Source of the DNA: Klebsiella pneumoniae
Lineage (GTDB): Bacteria > Pseudomonadota > Gammaproteobacteria > Pseudomonadales > Azotimanducaceae
Direction: 5' to 3'
Length of the DNA: 34,154 nucleotides
Assembly (NCBI GenBank): GCA_945861675.1
Contig: CAMAVY010000023.1
Location: 1-34,154 of the forward strand
Shown in pieces: positions 4,325 through 18,751 of the stretch (positions are counted from its first letter, which is position 1; each line of letters begins with the position of its first letter). Under the pieces are notes generated by a model. That model was not told where the DNA came from. It did no database searches and saw only the letters and a program-made list of their open reading frames with translations. A program made the translations under genes and the position numbers.

Positions 4325-4723
4325 TCAGGCGCGCGCGCCGTTGGCGAAGAACCTGTCGATGGAAAGCAGGTAGCGTGAAAAGTTGATCTTGCCGCGTGCG
4401 TGGCTGGCCTTCACAACGCCGCCTGCCGTCAGCAGATCGACGTCGGAGATGGAGCGCTGCGCGCCGACGCCACGCAGGCCATCGAGATAGGCACGCCAGC
4501 TGTCTGCGTTCATGTCCAGACAGAAGTCGAGTTCGGGCACTTCATCTTCACGGCAGGCAGCAACGCGCCCGATCTCAAATGCGTCCAGCTGAACTTCGAC
4601 AATGGCGTCGCCCTGACGCACAGCAAAGCGCGCGTCCGCAGTGCCGAACTTCTTGAACGTCGGGTCTGCATTGGTGCGTTCGCGGGCCTGTTCAAACCAC
4701 GCAAGCGTTGGAAAGTCGGACAT
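4325..4723 (-). CDS. Small SCP2-like (sterol carrier-like) protein, paralogue B
   Basis: A 132-residue protein with no signal peptide or membrane segment. It is a diverged tandem copy of the gene at 4780-5214: both open with an FP..WF..AR....NAD pattern, carry a GDA(I/L)..(V/F)QL strand, then an ELDF.LDM.....W...(L/I) block and a late R/F-rich helix. This order of one beta sheet with a helix over an acidic D/E-L-x-F strand resembles SCP2 lipid-binding domains, but the similarity is by eye and weak. The start ATG at 4723 follows GAGGCAAGGCTG, and the GAGG belongs to a 15-bp repeat at 4731-4775. It lies between paralogue A and the rhomboid-like gene in a tight minus-strand run. A role in holding a hydrophobic substrate for the upstream ferritin-like proteins is inference. 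Confidence 0.6.
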   Translation of the reverse strand: MSDFPTLAWFEQARERTNADPTFKKFGTADARFAVRQGDAIVEVQLDAFEIGRVAACREDEVPELDFCLDMNADSWRAYLDGLRGVGAQRSISDVDLLTAGGVVKASHARGKINFSRYLLSIDRFFANGARA

Positions 4724-4730
4724 CAGCCTT

Positions 4731-4775
4731 GCCTCGAAATAAAGAGCCTCGAAATAAAGAGCCTCGAAAAAAACC
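4731..4775. repeat. 15-bp tandem repeat, three copies, between the SCP2-like genes
   Basis: Units at 4731-4745 and 4746-4760 are identical (gcctcgaaataaaga). The third, 4761-4775, matches for the first nine bases and stays A-rich. On the minus strand each unit carries CGAGG, a Shine-Dalgarno-like core, and the last one serves the start codon at 4723. The block sits in the 56-bp gap between the two paralogous genes. Confidence 0.9.
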
Positions 4776-4779
4776 AGCT

Positions 4780-5214
4780 TCAGGAAAACGACGTATCGAT
4801 GTGCGTCGATGCGTCGAAGTAGTTTTGAAAGCTCTGATTGAAACGGAAGAACATGTCGGCGCGGTACTGATCACCAGTGGCGCTCTGGCACAGCCCGGTG
4901 TCGCGGTCGAGGTCCAACGTGTTCAGTGTGTAGTCGAGCGACGCGTGCCCGTATTCCTTGATGTTCTCGATCATGGCCTGCCAGGCGGCGGGCTCCATGT
5001 CCAGATAGAAGTCCAACTCGCGCAGCTGATCCGAACTGATTGCCGTTGCACCGGCGCAGTCGCGCCCCTCGAAGCTCAGTTGAAACAGTGCATCGCCGAC
5101 CATGATGCCCACTTCTGCGTTACAGGCGCCGGCACCGCCGCCGTGATACTGCTCATCTGCGTTGAATACATCACGCACAGCGTTGAACCATTCAACAGAC
5201 GGAAAGGCAGGCAT
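4780..5214 (-). CDS. Small SCP2-like (sterol carrier-like) protein, paralogue A
   Basis: A 144-residue soluble protein paralogous to 4325-4723. It begins MPAFPSVEWFNAVRD and includes GDALFQLSF (about 60-68), ELDFYLDMEPAAW near 86-98, and a C-terminal helix with FFRFNQSFQNYF. The layout suggests an SCP2-type lipid-binding fold. The assignment is tentative because these domains diverge strongly. It is 114 bp downstream of the ligand-poor ferritin-like gene and 56 bp upstream of its paralogue, all on the minus strand. SCP2-like domains bind sterols, fatty acyl-CoA or other apolar ligands. Two copies next to two di-iron-type proteins would suit a hydrophobic substrate. No catalytic residues are evident. 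An alternative is an unrelated alpha/beta protein of unknown function. Confidence 0.6.
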   Translation of the reverse strand: MPAFPSVEWFNAVRDVFNADEQYHGGGAGACNAEVGIMVGDALFQLSFEGRDCAGATAISSDQLRELDFYLDMEPAAWQAMIENIKEYGHASLDYTLNTLDLDRDTGLCQSATGDQYRADMFFRFNQSFQNYFDASTHIDTSFS

Positions 5215-5328
5215 GCGAGGAGGTCTCCGCTTCTTTTCTATGGTTTGGAAAGGTGGTTCAGCAAGGCATCGATGGTACGGATGGGCGTGTCCTGCGGCGG
5301 TGTTGCGCCGTGGTCGTGCCCGGCCGCG

Positions 5329-6429
5329 TCAGGCGATGTACTTCGCAAGTGCCGGATGCAGCGTCGCGCGGCGCGGCACGCCGATGTAGTCGCAGCATTC
5401 CAGGTAGTAGTTCAGCCAGTCACGAAACACACCACGCGCTTTCACCATGCCTTCGCCACGCGCGCCTTCAATGCCGCCGCCATAGAGGATGGCCAGCGAT
5501 TCGCGCAGTGCGGGATCTTTGAGTTCGCGTGCATAGATCGACTCGCCCACTGCCAGCACGGTCTGCAGGATCAGCGCCTGGTCGTCCTGATGCGTGACGG
5601 CGTAGCGCATGTGATCCAGCGCATAAACCATATGTCGTGCGGCGTCCTGGATGGAGTGTGAAAAAAGCGTGCGTTCTGCATCGTTGTGCGCAAACAGCAT
5701 GCCGTGCCGCATGAGCGTCAGCGTCAGCGTGCCGCGCATCAGGTACAGGTAGGCAAGCGTCTCGGTCCAGCCACCGCGGCTCTCTAGAATCATGCGATTC
5801 ACATCGCCCTTGCTCTCCAGGCCCATGCCGCCGCCATTCACCAGAGCACGCTTGCGGAACGCTTCGAACGTGCGTGCGCAATCGAAACTGTTGGTGGCCA
5901 GATACATCTTCACTTCGTGATAGCCGTACGCCATCTTGTCCTGCCAGATCGAAATGGCCTCGATCTCGGTGTTGGCGTAGTGGCAGATCTCTGTGCACAG
6001 CTGGCACATGGCGGTTTCGACATCGTCTGGCAGTTGCTCGATGCTGTTCCAATCCACATCCGTTGCGGGAATCCAGCGGCGTTGGATGGCTTCTTCGTAC
6101 AGATCGGCAGCGCTGTCTGCCCACAGTTCGTGTTTGGCGCGCACTGCATAGCCGATGGGCGGCACCCCGGCGCGCGGCACGGAACCGCGTGGCATGCGCG
6201 TCTGGTCTTCCCAGTAGTCCGGAATCTCGCCGTACACACCCACGTTCAATGCGCCCAGCGTCAGGCCCTTCTTGTTGGGCTTCACGCGCACGCCCCACTG
6301 CTTGGTCTTGCCCATCCAGGCGAAGTTGGGCTTGGGGACCTCGATCGCCGCCGCGGACGGCGCCGCCGCGGACGGCGCCGCCGCGGACGGCGGTGTCGCT
6401 GCGGCGGCTGATTTATTGCTGTCGGTCAT
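5329..6429 (-). CDS. Ferritin-like superfamily protein lacking most di-iron ligands (paralogue B)
   Basis: A 366-residue soluble protein, paralogous along its length to 6527-7609 (shared GLTL, LYEEA.QR.W, ATDV.W.SI, FRKRAL.NGGG and HMRY blocks). Against that intact partner the metal ligands are replaced: the first-helix Glu aligns with His150 or Ala152; the ExxH of helix 2 becomes Cys184...Thr187; the helix-3 Glu becomes Gly233; and the ExxH of helix 4 becomes Ala263...His266, so only one His survives. It is probably a non-catalytic subunit of a heteromer, as PaaC is to PaaA in phenylacetyl-CoA epoxidase. That comparison is analogy, not homology I can show. The N-terminus has an Ala/Pro/Ser tail (about 8-28) built from a 15-bp tandem repeat. 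It is 97 bp downstream of the intact paralogue on the same strand. Confidence 0.8.
   Translation of the reverse strand: MTDSNKSAAAATPPSAAAPSAAAPSAAAIEVPKPNFAWMGKTKQWGVRVKPNKKGLTLGALNVGVYGEIPDYWEDQTRMPRGSVPRAGVPPIGYAVRAKHELWADSAADLYEEAIQRRWIPATDVDWNSIEQLPDDVETAMCQLCTEICHYANTEIEAISIWQDKMAYGYHEVKMYLATNSFDCARTFEAFRKRALVNGGGMGLESKGDVNRMILESRGGWTETLAYLYLMRGTLTLTLMRHGMLFAHNDAERTLFSHSIQDAARHMVYALDHMRYAVTHQDDQALILQTVLAVGESIYARELKDPALRESLAILYGGGIEGARGEGMVKARGVFRDWLNYYLECCDYIGVPRRATLHPALAKYIA
6347..6391. repeat. 15-bp tandem repeat, three perfect copies, coding an Ala/Pro/Ser tail
   Basis: Three identical units of gccgccgcggacggc at 6347-6361, 6362-6376 and 6377-6391. On the minus strand they encode repeated APSAA near the N-terminus of the ligand-poor ferritin-like protein. 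The length is a multiple of three, so changes in copy number keep the frame. Confidence 0.95.
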
Positions 6430-6526
6430 GGGTCAACGCCTGTTCGGATGACGGATTGGCTGTTGTGCGGGTTGCGCTGCAGCGCCGGCTGGGACGATCG
6501 CGGCTGTGCGCTGGCTGCTGCAACGC

Positions 6527-7609
6527 TCAGGCAGCGTGCAGCAGTGCCACGAGATTCGGGTTTGCGCGGCCATTTTCGAAGCGCTCGCCAAAGCCCGCTG
6601 CGTTCAGCCGCTTCATGTATTCGATGACCTGCCGACGACGGATCGCAAACAGCTTCTTCATGCCTTCGTCGACTTTGTCCTTGCCACCGCCCAGCAGGAT
6701 TGCCAGGGCTTCGCCGCTGGGACCCTGTACTGCGGGGTTCTGCGAGGAGTTGGTCAGCAGGCCTGCTTCGCTCTCGTCCAGATAACAGTGAATCTCTTCG
6801 CGTCGGTCGGTGTGGGCTTCAGACAGGTAGCGCATGTGCATCACGCCGAAGGCCACGTGGCGCGCTTCATCCTGTGCGCACAGCCGGTACATGGCTTTTT
6901 CAGCGTCGTTGTAGGCCATGAGCTCGCCCATGCGGAACATGGTCAGCACCGCGCCTTCGCCGGACAGGTGCAGGCGGCATGACATCTCGTTGAAATCCTG
7001 CGACAGGTCGATGCCGCCCACGATGCCGCCGGCCATCGCGGTGCGCTGCATCAATCCGCCACCATTGGCGAGCGCGCGCTTGCGAAACACATCCATATGC
7101 CGGGCTTCATCGTTGACCTGCGCCAGCAGCAACAGGCGTGGTTCGTAGTAGTCCGCCGATGTGCGCGCAATCCAACGTGCCGGTACGTCGCCGGCGACGA
7201 ACTCCACCTCGGTGAAGAACGTGGCCAGCTGGCACTGCGCCTGTTCAATGTCGTCAGCCAGCGGCTTGATGCTGTCCCACGGCACATCGGTCGCGGAGCT
7301 CCACTGCCGTTGCAGTGCCTCTTCGTACAGCCAGCCTGCATTGTCCAGCCAGATGTCTTCCTTTGAACGCAACTGATAACCGGCCACGCGATAGCCGTCG
7401 CTGCGACTGGCAGCACCACGTGGGCGGCCGGTCTGATTGTCGGATTCCAGCGGAATGTTGCCGTAGCTGCCCACCTGGATATCGGCCAGCGTCAGGCCCT
7501 GCTTGCCAGGCCGTGCGCGTTGACCCCACTCGCCGCGTCGCTTCATCCAGGCGAGGTCCAGTTCGGGCATGAACGGGGACTCGGATTGCGCGGGGATGGC
7601 TTCGCTCAT
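6527..7609 (-). CDS. Ferritin-like di-iron protein with complete ligand set, putative oxygenase (paralogue A)
   Basis: A 360-residue soluble protein. A full di-iron carboxylate set is visible on four presumed helices: Glu134 or Glu136 (TEVEF), Glu168 and His171 (DEARH), Glu218 (SGEGA), and Glu248 and His251 (DEARH). Two ExxH motifs about 80 residues apart match the ferritin-like oxygenase and oxidase class (ribonucleotide reductase R2, AurF, PaaA). These activate O2 for hydroxylation, epoxidation or N-oxidation. I chose the ATG at 7609 because its length and N-terminal alignment match the paralogue downstream; the ribosome site is weak. It is the first gene of the minus-strand run. The next gene is its ligand-poor paralogue, then two SCP2-like genes. 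Substrate and true reaction are unknown. It could also be a non-oxygenase ferritin-like protein. Confidence 0.82.
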   Translation of the reverse strand: MSEAIPAQSESPFMPELDLAWMKRRGEWGQRARPGKQGLTLADIQVGSYGNIPLESDNQTGRPRGAASRSDGYRVAGYQLRSKEDIWLDNAGWLYEEALQRQWSSATDVPWDSIKPLADDIEQAQCQLATFFTEVEFVAGDVPARWIARTSADYYEPRLLLLAQVNDEARHMDVFRKRALANGGGLMQRTAMAGGIVGGIDLSQDFNEMSCRLHLSGEGAVLTMFRMGELMAYNDAEKAMYRLCAQDEARHVAFGVMHMRYLSEAHTDRREEIHCYLDESEAGLLTNSSQNPAVQGPSGEALAILLGGGKDKVDEGMKKLFAIRRRQVIEYMKRLNAAGFGERFENGRANPNLVALLHAA

Positions 7610-7777
7610 GTGTGCATACCGATTTGGAAGTTGTGGGACGTGACCGGACCGGGGCGGCGGGCAAAGTAACCAACAGTGCGAAGGCATAGCAAGCGCGATT
7701 CCACCAAGTGCCATTCGCTGGCGCAGATGGCACCATGGCCGTCGGATGCCGATGCACGGATGTGCTGGATCCTGTTC

Positions 7778-7823
7778 CAAAAGGAGCTGAGGGCTCCTCT
7801 CAAAAGGAGCTGAGGGCTCCTCC
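7778..7823. repeat. 23-bp tandem repeat, each unit a hairpin followed by Ts on the minus strand
   Basis: Two units (7778-7800 and 7801-7823) differ only at the last base, and a decayed partial third follows to about 7837. Each unit contains AGGAGC-TGAGG-GCTCCT, a perfect 6-bp stem with a 5-nt loop. On the minus strand each stem is followed by TTTTG, which resembles an intrinsic terminator. They lie 170-215 bp upstream of the ferritin-like operon and just before the GIY-YIG-like gene, so they could attenuate or insulate the minus-strand transcript. Confidence 0.85.
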
Positions 7824-7844
7824 CAAAAGTGATGAGGGCGGCCT

Positions 7845-9419: not shown

Positions 9420-9481
9420 AGGACCGCCAGCGCTGATTTACCCAGGACCGCTAGCGCTGATTTACCCAGGACCGCTAGCGC
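9420..9481. repeat. 24-bp tandem repeat at a convergent gene junction
   Basis: Units at 9420-9443 and 9444-9467 differ at one position, and 14 bases of a third copy follow (9468-9481). The unit starts AGGACCGC and ends GATTTACCC. It starts 2 bp after the acyl-CoA dehydrogenase stop and runs into the last codons of the minus-strand gene. Each full copy therefore carries a duplicate of that gene's stop codon and last residues. Confidence 0.92.
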
Positions 9482-16780: not shown

Positions 16781-17542
16781 TCAGTACTGCAACTCAAGCG
16801 CGCGACAGAGAAACCGCATCAGGGGTGCGGCCTGCTTGAAACGGGCCGCGGCGCGCTGCACGAAATCCGGGCTCGCCACCTCTGCGTCGGAAATGTCGAA
16901 ACCAGCGATGAAGTCCTTGCGCTTCAGGTCCTGCACAAACGGATGATCGGCTGCAATGCCGCGCGGTGGTCGCGCCAGGCTGCTGCCGCCGAGCGTCCAG
17001 GTGGATGTGAAGCCCTTGTCGGCACACACCTTCTTCCATTCGTTGGGCGCGTCGAGAATACGTTGCCGAATCTTCGCCAGCGCATCGGGCTCGGGGCGCC
17101 ACATGCCGGCACCCATGAAACACTCGCCCGGCTCGATGTGCACGTAGAAGCCAGGCGCATGTACGTCTTTGGCGAGCTCGTGGCGGAACTGAATGCCGAC
17201 ATTGGTCTTGTAGGGTGTCTTGTCTTTCGCGAAGCGCGTGTCTTTGTACGGCCGCATCAACGAGCCGCCCTGCTTCTGCGGCAGCGCAAGGAAGTGATCC
17301 GAGATCTTCTCGAGGTGCGGCCCCATTGCCGCAATGAAGTCGAGCGCCGGATTCAGCACGTTGGCGTCGTACAGGCCTTTGTGCTCTGCGAACCAGGCGC
17401 GCTCGTTGTGTGCGGCCAGCTGTCGCAGGAACGTCATGGTGGGTTTGCCGAAGCCAACGAAACCGGTCTTGGTTGGGCCCGTCTTGGCTGGACCTGCCTT
17501 GGCGGGCGGCTTCGTCTGCGTTGCTTTGCGTGCGGTAGGCAT
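16781..17542 (-). CDS. DUF2461 (TIGR02453) family protein
   Basis: A 253-residue protein of the widespread DUF2461 family. Signatures are FLRQLAAHNERAWFAEHK (about 39-56), RPYKDTRFAKDKTPYKTNVG near the middle, and GFYVHIEPGECFMGAGMWRPEPDALAKIR. Its function is not established; members are cytosolic and often stand alone in the genome. The first 25 residues form a Lys/Pro/Ala/Gly-rich tail (PAKAGPAKTGPTKTG) with imperfect five-residue repeats, which the family core does not need. The ATG at 17542 is the only upstream start. The gene is convergent with SulP and lies downstream of the Ldh-family gene on the same strand. Confidence 0.93.
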   Translation of the reverse strand: MPTARKATQTKPPAKAGPAKTGPTKTGFVGFGKPTMTFLRQLAAHNERAWFAEHKGLYDANVLNPALDFIAAMGPHLEKISDHFLALPQKQGGSLMRPYKDTRFAKDKTPYKTNVGIQFRHELAKDVHAPGFYVHIEPGECFMGAGMWRPEPDALAKIRQRILDAPNEWKKVCADKGFTSTWTLGGSSLARPPRGIAADHPFVQDLKRKDFIAGFDISDAEVASPDFVQRAAARFKQAAPLMRFLCRALELQY

Positions 17543-17584
17543 GTCAGCTCCGAGGGTCGGTCAGGTTACGTGTGCAGTACTGGC

Positions 17585-18652
17585 TTAACCTGCGCCCGCA
17601 AATTCCGCCTCATTGATGCCCACACCGATAGCGGCTTTCACAATGCCATTCCAGCTGTTGTCATCGATGTACAGGCCGTCACGCAGGCGCGCGGCCATGG
17701 TGCTGCGCTCGACGTCGCCTGGCATCAGAACTTCGTTATGGCCTTCGGCCGGCTTGGTGCTGCGGATGTAGTCAGACATCGCGGTGACTTCTGCTTCGTA
17801 CATCTCGCGGCCACCGAACGCATCCGGATCGATGACGATCGACAACATGTTGTTGATGGTCGCGCCGTAGTCGCGATTGCCGTTCGGCTGCATGGTCCAG
17901 TGGCCGGCCAGCGCGCCGCCCAGCAGCTCGCAGAGAATCTGCAGGCCGCCGCCCTTGTGCAGACCGAACGGCAGCAGGAAGCCGCGCGGCCCGCTGGTGA
18001 AGAACTTGCCGGGATCTGTGGTTGGGTTGCCGTCGGCATCCAGCAATGCGTTTTCCTGCAGTTGCTCGCCTTTCATGTGTGCCACACGCACCTTGCCGAT
18101 GGCGATGGCACTGGTGGCGAAGTCCAGCGCGATGTGCCTGCCGTCGGCCTGTGGCACCACGCAGCAGTAGGGGTTCGTGACCATGCGTGGCTCGCGTCCG
18201 CCATAGGGCGCCACCGCCGGTTCGTGGCCCACCACATTCACGTAGTGCATGGATACCAGGCCTGCATCTGCACATTGTTCTCCGTAGGTGCCAATGCGGC
18301 CGATGTGGCATGCGTTGCGCAGCGCAACGCAGGCAACACCGGTCTGCTTTGCACGTGCAATCGCCAGCTCCATGGTCTGTTTGCCGATTGCAGCACCCAG
18401 TCCGTAGTCGCCGTCCACCACCATGACGGCGACGTGGTCGGAGATCACCTTCGCACGCCTGTTGGGAAACATGCGGCCCGCTTTGATCCATTGCAGATAC
18501 GCCGGCACCATACCCACGCCGTGCGAGTCGTGGCCCTTCAGGTTGGCGCGGACCAGATGGTCGGCACAGGTATGCGCATTGGCGTGTTCGGTGCCGGCGC
18601 GTTCCAGCATGGTGGTGACGAGGTGGGTCAGACGATCGGCTTGAATGAGCAT
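17585..18652 (-). CDS. Ldh family (malate/L-lactate dehydrogenase-like) NAD(P)-dependent oxidoreductase
   Basis: A 355-residue cytosolic oxidoreductase of the Ldh2/YlbC/YbiC type, not the classical Rossmann lactate dehydrogenases. Visible signatures are NLKGHDSHGVGMVPAYL (about 38-54, carrying the catalytic-loop His), GDYGLGAAIGKQTMELA (about 81-97), ACHIGRIGTYGE, and MVTNPYCCVVPQADGRHIALDFATSAIA. Relatives oxidise or reduce 2-hydroxy acids: hydroxycarboxylate, ureidoglycolate, sulfolactate, 2,3-diketogulonate and delta-1-piperideine-2-carboxylate enzymes. The length is typical. The closest resemblance by eye is to the YbiC-type branch. It is 42 bp upstream of the DUF2461 gene and about 99 bp downstream of the carboxymuconolactone decarboxylase-like gene, all on the minus strand. 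Confidence 0.92.
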   Translation of the reverse strand: MLIQADRLTHLVTTMLERAGTEHANAHTCADHLVRANLKGHDSHGVGMVPAYLQWIKAGRMFPNRRAKVISDHVAVMVVDGDYGLGAAIGKQTMELAIARAKQTGVACVALRNACHIGRIGTYGEQCADAGLVSMHYVNVVGHEPAVAPYGGREPRMVTNPYCCVVPQADGRHIALDFATSAIAIGKVRVAHMKGEQLQENALLDADGNPTTDPGKFFTSGPRGFLLPFGLHKGGGLQILCELLGGALAGHWTMQPNGNRDYGATINNMLSIVIDPDAFGGREMYEAEVTAMSDYIRSTKPAEGHNEVLMPGDVERSTMAARLRDGLYIDDNSWNGIVKAAIGVGINEAEFAGAG

Positions 18653-18751
18653 GATGTTCTCGCTATGGAGTACAGGTCGGGCTGAAGAGTACGGCTAGGC
18701 AATACTTCGGAGCCAGATCATCAGTATGTTCAGCGTGCGTCTCGCCGCGCA

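Follow-up and report, generated by a model that had tools for sequence, protein, structure and literature searches.

The stretch analysed here, which we call the window, is contig CAMAVY010000023.1 of GenBank assembly GCA_945861675.1 (34,154 nucleotides), from a genome that GTDB places in the Pseudomonadales. Its positions 4325 to 7609 hold a cassette of four genes, which encode two paralogous ferritin-like proteins, A with a complete di-iron site and B with a degenerate one, followed by two SCP2-like proteins, S1 and S2. The cassette recurs in order in marine bacteria of two distant phyla, usually with a fifth gene, F, for an FmdB-type zinc ribbon. On balance, we lean toward reading it as a multicomponent ferritin-like di-iron (or Mn/Fe) oxygenase built from A, B, the SCP2-fold proteins S1/S2, and F. 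An earlier note, made from the sequence of the window, had described two duplicated gene pairs on one strand; the open reading frames (ORFs) confirm these four genes, but the note missed F, which is displaced in this genome.

All four ORFs are encoded one after another on the minus strand, with intergenic gaps of 97, 114, and 56 bases from A to S2. A (6527..7609, 360 amino acids) is the proposed catalytic di-iron subunit, with the site E134/E168/H171/E218/E248/H251, and its ligand-poor paralogue B (5329..6429, 366 amino acids) is the proposed non-catalytic partner. S1 (4780..5214, 144 amino acids) is an SCP2-fold protein that we propose as a substrate-binding or effector subunit, and S2 (4325..4723, 132 amino acids) is its paralogue. 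We set the start of A at 7609, which matches the length of its relatives; a longer ORF to 7915 does not. None of the four proteins reaches a Pfam or NCBIfam cut-off.

Conservation and spread of the cassette

We searched for A in one genome per species using peptide patterns, which reach close relatives only, and obtained 45 loci, titled Gammaproteobacteria, Pseudomonadales or Proteobacteria, and Dehalococcoidia, SAR202 or Chloroflexi. In 44 of them, the cassette gene that follows A is B (at L035 across a 1.8 kb gap), and the remaining locus, L049, is truncated within A. At least one SCP2-like gene follows A and B in 40 of the 45, while the other five end at contig ends before any; 35 hold A, B, and two or more SCP2-like genes in order. 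Only one SCP2 gene was seen at L007, L023, L029, L031, and L036, of which L023 and L036 are cut at contig ends. Locus counts here are not independent: the 87 loci read include several close relatives and some loci that were read a second time, L018 and L045 of one genome being an example. The earlier note had asked whether the order holds in distant genomes, and it does, in both Pseudomonadales and Chloroflexota (Dehalococcoidia/SAR202). The note's reading had also hung on the genes co-occurring, on the SCP2 fold, and on intact and ligand-poor copies being found together; the cassette shows all three, although solo and differently arranged forms exist in the wider family.

The surroundings of the cassette behave differently. 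At E 1e-10, the 87 loci contain no relatives of the window's old yellow enzyme (OYE)-type, rhomboid, DsbA-like or DUF1570-like genes, and the window's acyl-CoA (coenzyme A) dehydrogenase has three distant matches at 27–33% identity. Because the flanking genes do not recur, the conserved unit is the cassette and not the region. An ordinary neighbourhood, in which the four genes stand together by chance or through long-range synteny, is refuted by this near absence of the flanks and by the recurrence of A, B, S, and F in two phyla with altered internal order.

Matches to A occur in 67 of 206 genomes in the window's family, in 5 of 293 in its order (all from one family, the window's own genome included), and in 2 of 349 in its phylum, again counting the window's own. 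The other phylum-level match, G970 (L234, 6483-8171), is a fusion protein: its ferritin-like domain, a distant relation of A (E 9e-44), is joined to an N-terminal part unrelated to it. We found neither SCP2 nor F genes in the 14 kb read there and set this match aside. Of 294 genomes in the class to which a Dehalococcoidia (Chloroflexota) member belongs, 98 have A/B-type matches, with up to seven per genome. If the cassette is an oxygenase, it would thus represent a multicomponent di-iron family without a Pfam entry that is widespread in this class. It is proposed in PMC10444878 that paralogue expansions of catabolic enzymes widened the oxidation range of SAR202. We picked 40 further regions for diversity, 20 plus 5 from the class of the Chloroflexota member and 15 from the window's family, and these added other architectures: A alone, A-B, A-S, A-B-S, and tandem A-A.

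The window's genome carries a second full A-B-S1-S2 cassette on contig C8 (L052, 5453-11062), without F in place. It is convergent with genes for a TauD-like dioxygenase and a sugar-isomerase-like TIM-barrel protein, both named by eye. An orphan third A on contig C4 (L051, 6458-7525) is 75% identical with all ligands intact, and no B, SCP2 or F genes were found within the 16 kb read around it; it adjoins a leucyl-tRNA-synthetase-like gene, also named by eye.

F is a protein of about 90 residues encoded after the SCP2 genes, found by clustering neighbouring genes with small ORFs allowed. F accompanies the cassette in 36 of the 38 A-search loci that extend beyond it (exceptions: L006 and L029), and in five further Chloroflexota loci it sits between B and the SCP2 gene, so the linkage survives a changed order. 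All 17 aligned members match TIGR02605 (FmdB), and F also matches PF09723 (E 1.3e-9 for the F of the window's genome). Its cysteines C8, C11, C30, and C33 (CxxC...CxxC) are invariant or nearly so. What sets F apart from the FmdB family is a conserved tail (LDPKYDKMVD...ADPDR) and a fixed, oxygenase-like gene context. No credible sequence relatives of F were found in the PDB.

Across the 206 family genomes, F (E 1e-15) was detected in 58 of 61 genomes with A versus 2 of 145 others, and both of these two are 74% complete (Fisher p about 7e-45, uncorrected for relatedness). For this count, six of the 67 A matches were excluded as another subfamily or weak (G325, G336, G337, G342, G353, and G354), G337 by score alone and the other five also by reading their loci; with the six retained, F is found in 58 of 67. 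Among the mismatches that we read, G487 has its F truncated at a contig end, the contig of G365 stops within B, and in G373 a B that is cut off and an SCP2 gene come before F.

The window's genome has its F on contig C153, where L186 (1582-5078) holds F and, immediately after it, the genes of a CbbQ/CbbO-like pair: a CbbQ/NorQ-type AAA+ ATPase (PF07728, PF08406) and a VWA protein. G350 (L223) shows the same arrangement, and its A-B-S-S set likewise has no F in place. We rejected this pair as a general partner, given that the VWA match occurs in 156 of the 206 family genomes versus 61 with A. F stood beside such a pair in none of 12 other genomes read, and we treat the link, seen in the window's genome and G350, as a lead only.

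Metal sites and predicted folds

The earlier note had assigned A all six di-iron ligands, and E134, E168, H171, E218, E248, and H251 are indeed invariant in all 42 aligned A rows (window and locus proteins). In an AlphaFold model built from the A+B alignment (predicted local distance difference test, pLDDT, 76.7; predicted template modelling score 0.74), they sit on the long helices 119-149, 155-183, 206-226, and 235-265 in the order E, ExxH, E, ExxH. The model matches VlmB (Z 22.6, root-mean-square deviation [rmsd] 3.0, 260 aligned residues) and 6d9f, which is titled as having deformylating activity (Z 22.6), followed by aldehyde-deformylating oxygenases (Z about 21) and by R2lox and the R2 protein of ribonucleotide reductase (RNR; Z about 20); identity in the rows listed is 11–17%. 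A is thus predicted to resemble O2-activating di-iron proteins, RNR R2 included.

Weak Pfam leads among 43 aligned A/B members were DUF455 in 17 and AurF in 3 (best E 0.0049), and the NCBIfam R2lox equivalog scored A at 30.6 bits, below its cut-off of 194. The fold score to VlmB would suit membership of the AurF/VlmB type, but AurF appears in only those 3 of 43 members and R2 proteins score nearly as high. A single-sequence search of the PDB returned no credible relatives of A, and the one hit of a profile search was 6d9f, a putative homologue of VlmB (E 0.25). No named plasmid-borne relatives of A were found.

B is 37% identical to A and has lost the site. At the six ligand columns, the window's B has the residues H, C, T, G, A, H and so keeps H251 only, in agreement with the single His of the earlier note. 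The close set of B was aligned in 40 rows, one a short gapped fragment; in all 39 readable rows, none of the four ligand carboxylates is kept. E134 is replaced by Q in 37 rows, E168 by A or G in 34, E218 by G or A in 38, and E248 by K in 27, while H171 is retained in 23 and H251 in 25. The A/B pair is a clear example of an intact and a metal-poor enzyme copy kept together across phyla.

A tree of 147 sequences splits A-type from B-type proteins with support of 1.0. On the A side, the gammaproteobacterial A proteins (0.996) join those Chloroflexota A proteins that share their architecture (0.966); on the B side, support is 0.977 for the gammaproteobacterial group and 0.979 for the joint gammaproteobacterial and Chloroflexota group, with the Chloroflexota group alone at only 0.61. 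Distances in A and B correlate at 0.87 over 43 loci, a value that shared ancestry alone would also give. Judged from these alignments and trees, the simplest account is that A and B go back to a single ancient duplication, that B lost its metal site step by step, and that the two genes were inherited together in two phyla.

In the regions added for diversity, all six ligands persist in 36 of 41 A-type rows; four rows carry Q in place of the first ligand, and that of L168 is ligand-poor. None of the 25 B-type rows from these regions has all six. The Gln in the E134 column belongs to A-type proteins of L162, L163, L181, and L182, which are A-B-only Chloroflexota loci. The gammaproteobacterial locus L168 (5511-8288) combines one intact and one ligand-poor A-type gene with an SCP2-like gene. 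Its ligand-poor copy sits on a long branch within the A-type proteins and perhaps records a second, independent loss of the metal site.

For the SCP2-like pair, the assignment of the earlier note holds directly for S1 and by homology for S2. The AlphaFold model of S1 (pLDDT 95.2) is matched best, by VIA-align, by the sterol carrier protein 2 structure 2cx7 (Z 12.9, rmsd 2.5, 121 aligned) and by 1wfr (Z 11.5), and all other matches score Z 9.2 or less. Foldseek by itself found nothing for S1 below E 0.001, with proteins other than SCP2 in its first nine rows; we base the assignment on the second look with VIA-align together with a profile match to 2cx7 (E 0.043). Pfam SCP2 was matched by none of 40 aligned S1/S2 members at E up to 0.1. 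S1 and S2 are 25% identical and alignable over most of the length of S2, and each matches both SCP2-like genes of the C8 cassette, with cross-matches at E 9.8e-14 and, weakly, 3.5e-6; S2 thus probably shares the fold modelled for S1. The 24 best S1 rows are either SCP2 proteins or alkylsulfatases of the PisA1/SdsA1/YjcS kind, in which the match covers the C-terminal part, which we take to be an SCP2-like domain. The polar residues N98 and D101 of S1 are highly conserved in a stretch (TLNTLDL) that differs in S2.

Proposed mechanism, rivals, and known systems

In the oxygenase that we propose, A would bind the metals and activate O2. B, as a duplicate without the metal site, would pair with A for structure and docking, as PaaC does on PaaA. 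S1 and S2 may bind an apolar or CoA-linked substrate and hand it to A, in the manner of UbiJ and Coq9, or may dock as effector subunits, and F may support the reaction as a rubredoxin-like electron donor or as a maturation or adaptor factor. The donor idea comes from the short spacing of F's two CxxC motifs, which recalls the rubredoxin domain of rubrerythrin. If the proposal is correct, SCP2-fold proteins are fixed partners of a soluble di-iron enzyme, and the FmdB-type zinc ribbon gains a biochemical context. A bolder version, which we put forward tentatively and rather doubt, is that A-B-S1-S2-F forms a new class of soluble multicomponent di-iron oxygenase, in which the SCP2 subunits carry the substrate and the FmdB-type ribbon is a rubredoxin-like donor, so that a rubrerythrin-like pairing is split over two proteins. 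Duplication and the loss of a metal site would have produced such a class, within a family that grew in SAR202-type Chloroflexota and that one Pseudomonadales family shares, and the enzyme would oxidise resistant marine organic matter.

Several observations weigh against the oxygenase reading. The model of A is only fair, and the ten-residue block means over residues 1-110 are all below 70 pLDDT; moreover, six-ligand ferritin-like sites occur in non-oxygenase proteins too. Among 24 gene clusters that recur in four or more of the 87 loci, three are A/B and SCP2, one (68 amino acids) was unscanned, and representatives of the other 20, scanned within a search limited to locus neighbours, included no flavin/iron-sulphur reductase of the PaaE type (flavin adenine dinucleotide/2Fe-2S). 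The F gene of the window's genome is unlinked, neither full cassette has it in place, and one copy of A there stands alone. L007 and L031 hold one SCP2 gene, L029 holds one and no F, and the single-A, A-B-only, and A-S architectures indicate from gene content that B and S are not universally required. B-type proteins of more distant Chloroflexota have also lost less of the site: of 25 B-type rows, the first Glu persists in 9 and Asp stands at the third carboxylate in 8, all of these from Chloroflexota, so ligand loss in B is graded, and B need not be metal-free across the family.

The components could also work in other ways. Instead of carrying lipids, S1 and S2 may dock on A/B as effector (coupling) subunits and there gate substrate and O2, the SCP2 fold having been recruited for protein contacts. 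Coupling proteins of bacterial multicomponent monooxygenases are cofactor-free and gate substrate and O2 in this way, and both the conserved polar N98 and D101 of S1 and the single SCP2-like protein beside A at loci where no B was detected (L164-L167) would fit such a role; we nevertheless think it fairly improbable, as the structures closest to S1 are ligand binders. F may instead be a maturation or metal-loading factor that, with the AAA+/VWA pair, activates the di-iron site of A rather than donating electrons. The position of displaced F in the window's genome and in G350 speaks for this, but the breadth of the VWA match and the 12 genomes where F stands apart from the pair speak against it, and the link could stem from a single relocation; we hold this role to be possible yet on the unlikely side.

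A chemistry of A other than hydroxylation or epoxidation is a further possibility, namely an R2lox-, VlmB- or deformylase-like oxidase (N-oxidation, aldehyde deformylation or cross-linking) that B only stabilises. The top structural matches, with the VlmB azoxy synthase and 6d9f ahead of the deformylating oxygenases and R2lox, and the weak NCBIfam R2lox match point this way. However, RNR R2 scores like R2lox, so the fold alone does not discriminate, and genes for a conserved pseudo-subunit, SCP2 proteins, and a zinc ribbon are not known from those systems; to our knowledge, VlmB/6d9f, the deformylating oxygenases, and R2lox have no metal-poor paralogue and no SCP2 or FmdB partners. They share with A a ferritin-like di-metal fold but only 11–17% identity in the rows listed. 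We consider this chemistry a minority prospect and return to the multicomponent oxygenase as our preferred reading.

Known multicomponent systems offer the closest parallels. Bacterial multicomponent monooxygenases (the methane monooxygenase/toluene/phenol type) pair alpha and beta paralogues with metal in one of them and include a small, cofactor-free coupling subunit. The cassette is similar in its A/B pair, with an intact site in one member, and in its small proteins S1 and S2; it differs in the size of A and B, about 360 amino acids, and in lacking a reductase. Phenol-hydroxylase-type and MmoB-type Pfam families gave no match at E up to 0.1 in A, B, S1, S2 or their aligned members. In PaaABCE, as a passage of PMC4498308 describes, the catalytic six-ligand subunit PaaA is paired with the structural PaaC of the same fold, with small further proteins in the same operon (PMC4498308). 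Here, the corresponding likeness, an intact di-iron protein encoded with a ligand-poor one of the same fold, is known from genes. Unlike PaaABCE, the cassette has SCP2-fold proteins and an FmdB zinc ribbon in place of PaaB and PaaD, and no PaaE-type reductase among its recurrent neighbours; Pfam PaaA_PaaC was not matched by A, B or the 43 aligned A/B members at E up to 0.1. By sequence, then, the cassette belongs neither with PaaAC nor with the multicomponent monooxygenases, which it would resemble in function.

Coq7 is a di-iron hydroxylase, and we know of no metal-free twin of it. The ubiquinone pathway resembles the cassette in placing a lipid-binding-type protein alongside a di-iron enzyme, but the genes differ, and UbiJ and Coq9 serve a biosynthetic complex. 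A passage of PMC8854274 suggests that the SCP2 protein UbiJ and the lipid-binding Coq9 present apolar intermediates to enzymes of that pathway. The earlier note knew of no described system of this composition, and we likewise found no account of the A-B-SCP2-F combination among the papers listed by searches of open-licence PMC full text, nor a matching system in Pfam, although a description elsewhere is possible. In the main text of the SAR202 papers that we word-searched, ferritin-like or di-iron proteins are not mentioned, and sterol is mentioned twice in one.

Neighbouring genes and other observations

The earlier note had cast the downstream OYE-type flavoprotein as redox partner or next enzyme, a candidate that we rejected because no relative of it occurs in the 87 loci at the threshold given above. 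A 2-oxoacid:ferredoxin oxidoreductase pair is encoded on the other strand at four Chloroflexota loci, in three of them 6-7 kb downstream (two from one genome). Among recurrent neighbours in the 87 loci are CoA-transferase family III (22), DUF3604 (18), SSS symporter (17), alpha/beta hydrolase (9), and enoyl-CoA hydratase (6); each cluster was named from one scanned member, and the counts carry no background rate and include many related loci. These neighbours hint at uptake and CoA-thioester catabolism, and we claim no substrate.

No RNA families or tRNAs were found in the window. A 580-amino-acid ORF at 16943-18685 has no Pfam match at E up to 0.001. Short tandem repeats with units of 15-24 bases occur at 4731-4773, in the gap between S1 and S2; at 7777-7839, 5' of A; at 9420-9481, just 3' of the acyl-CoA dehydrogenase gene; and at 6346-6392, inside the N-terminal coding region of B.

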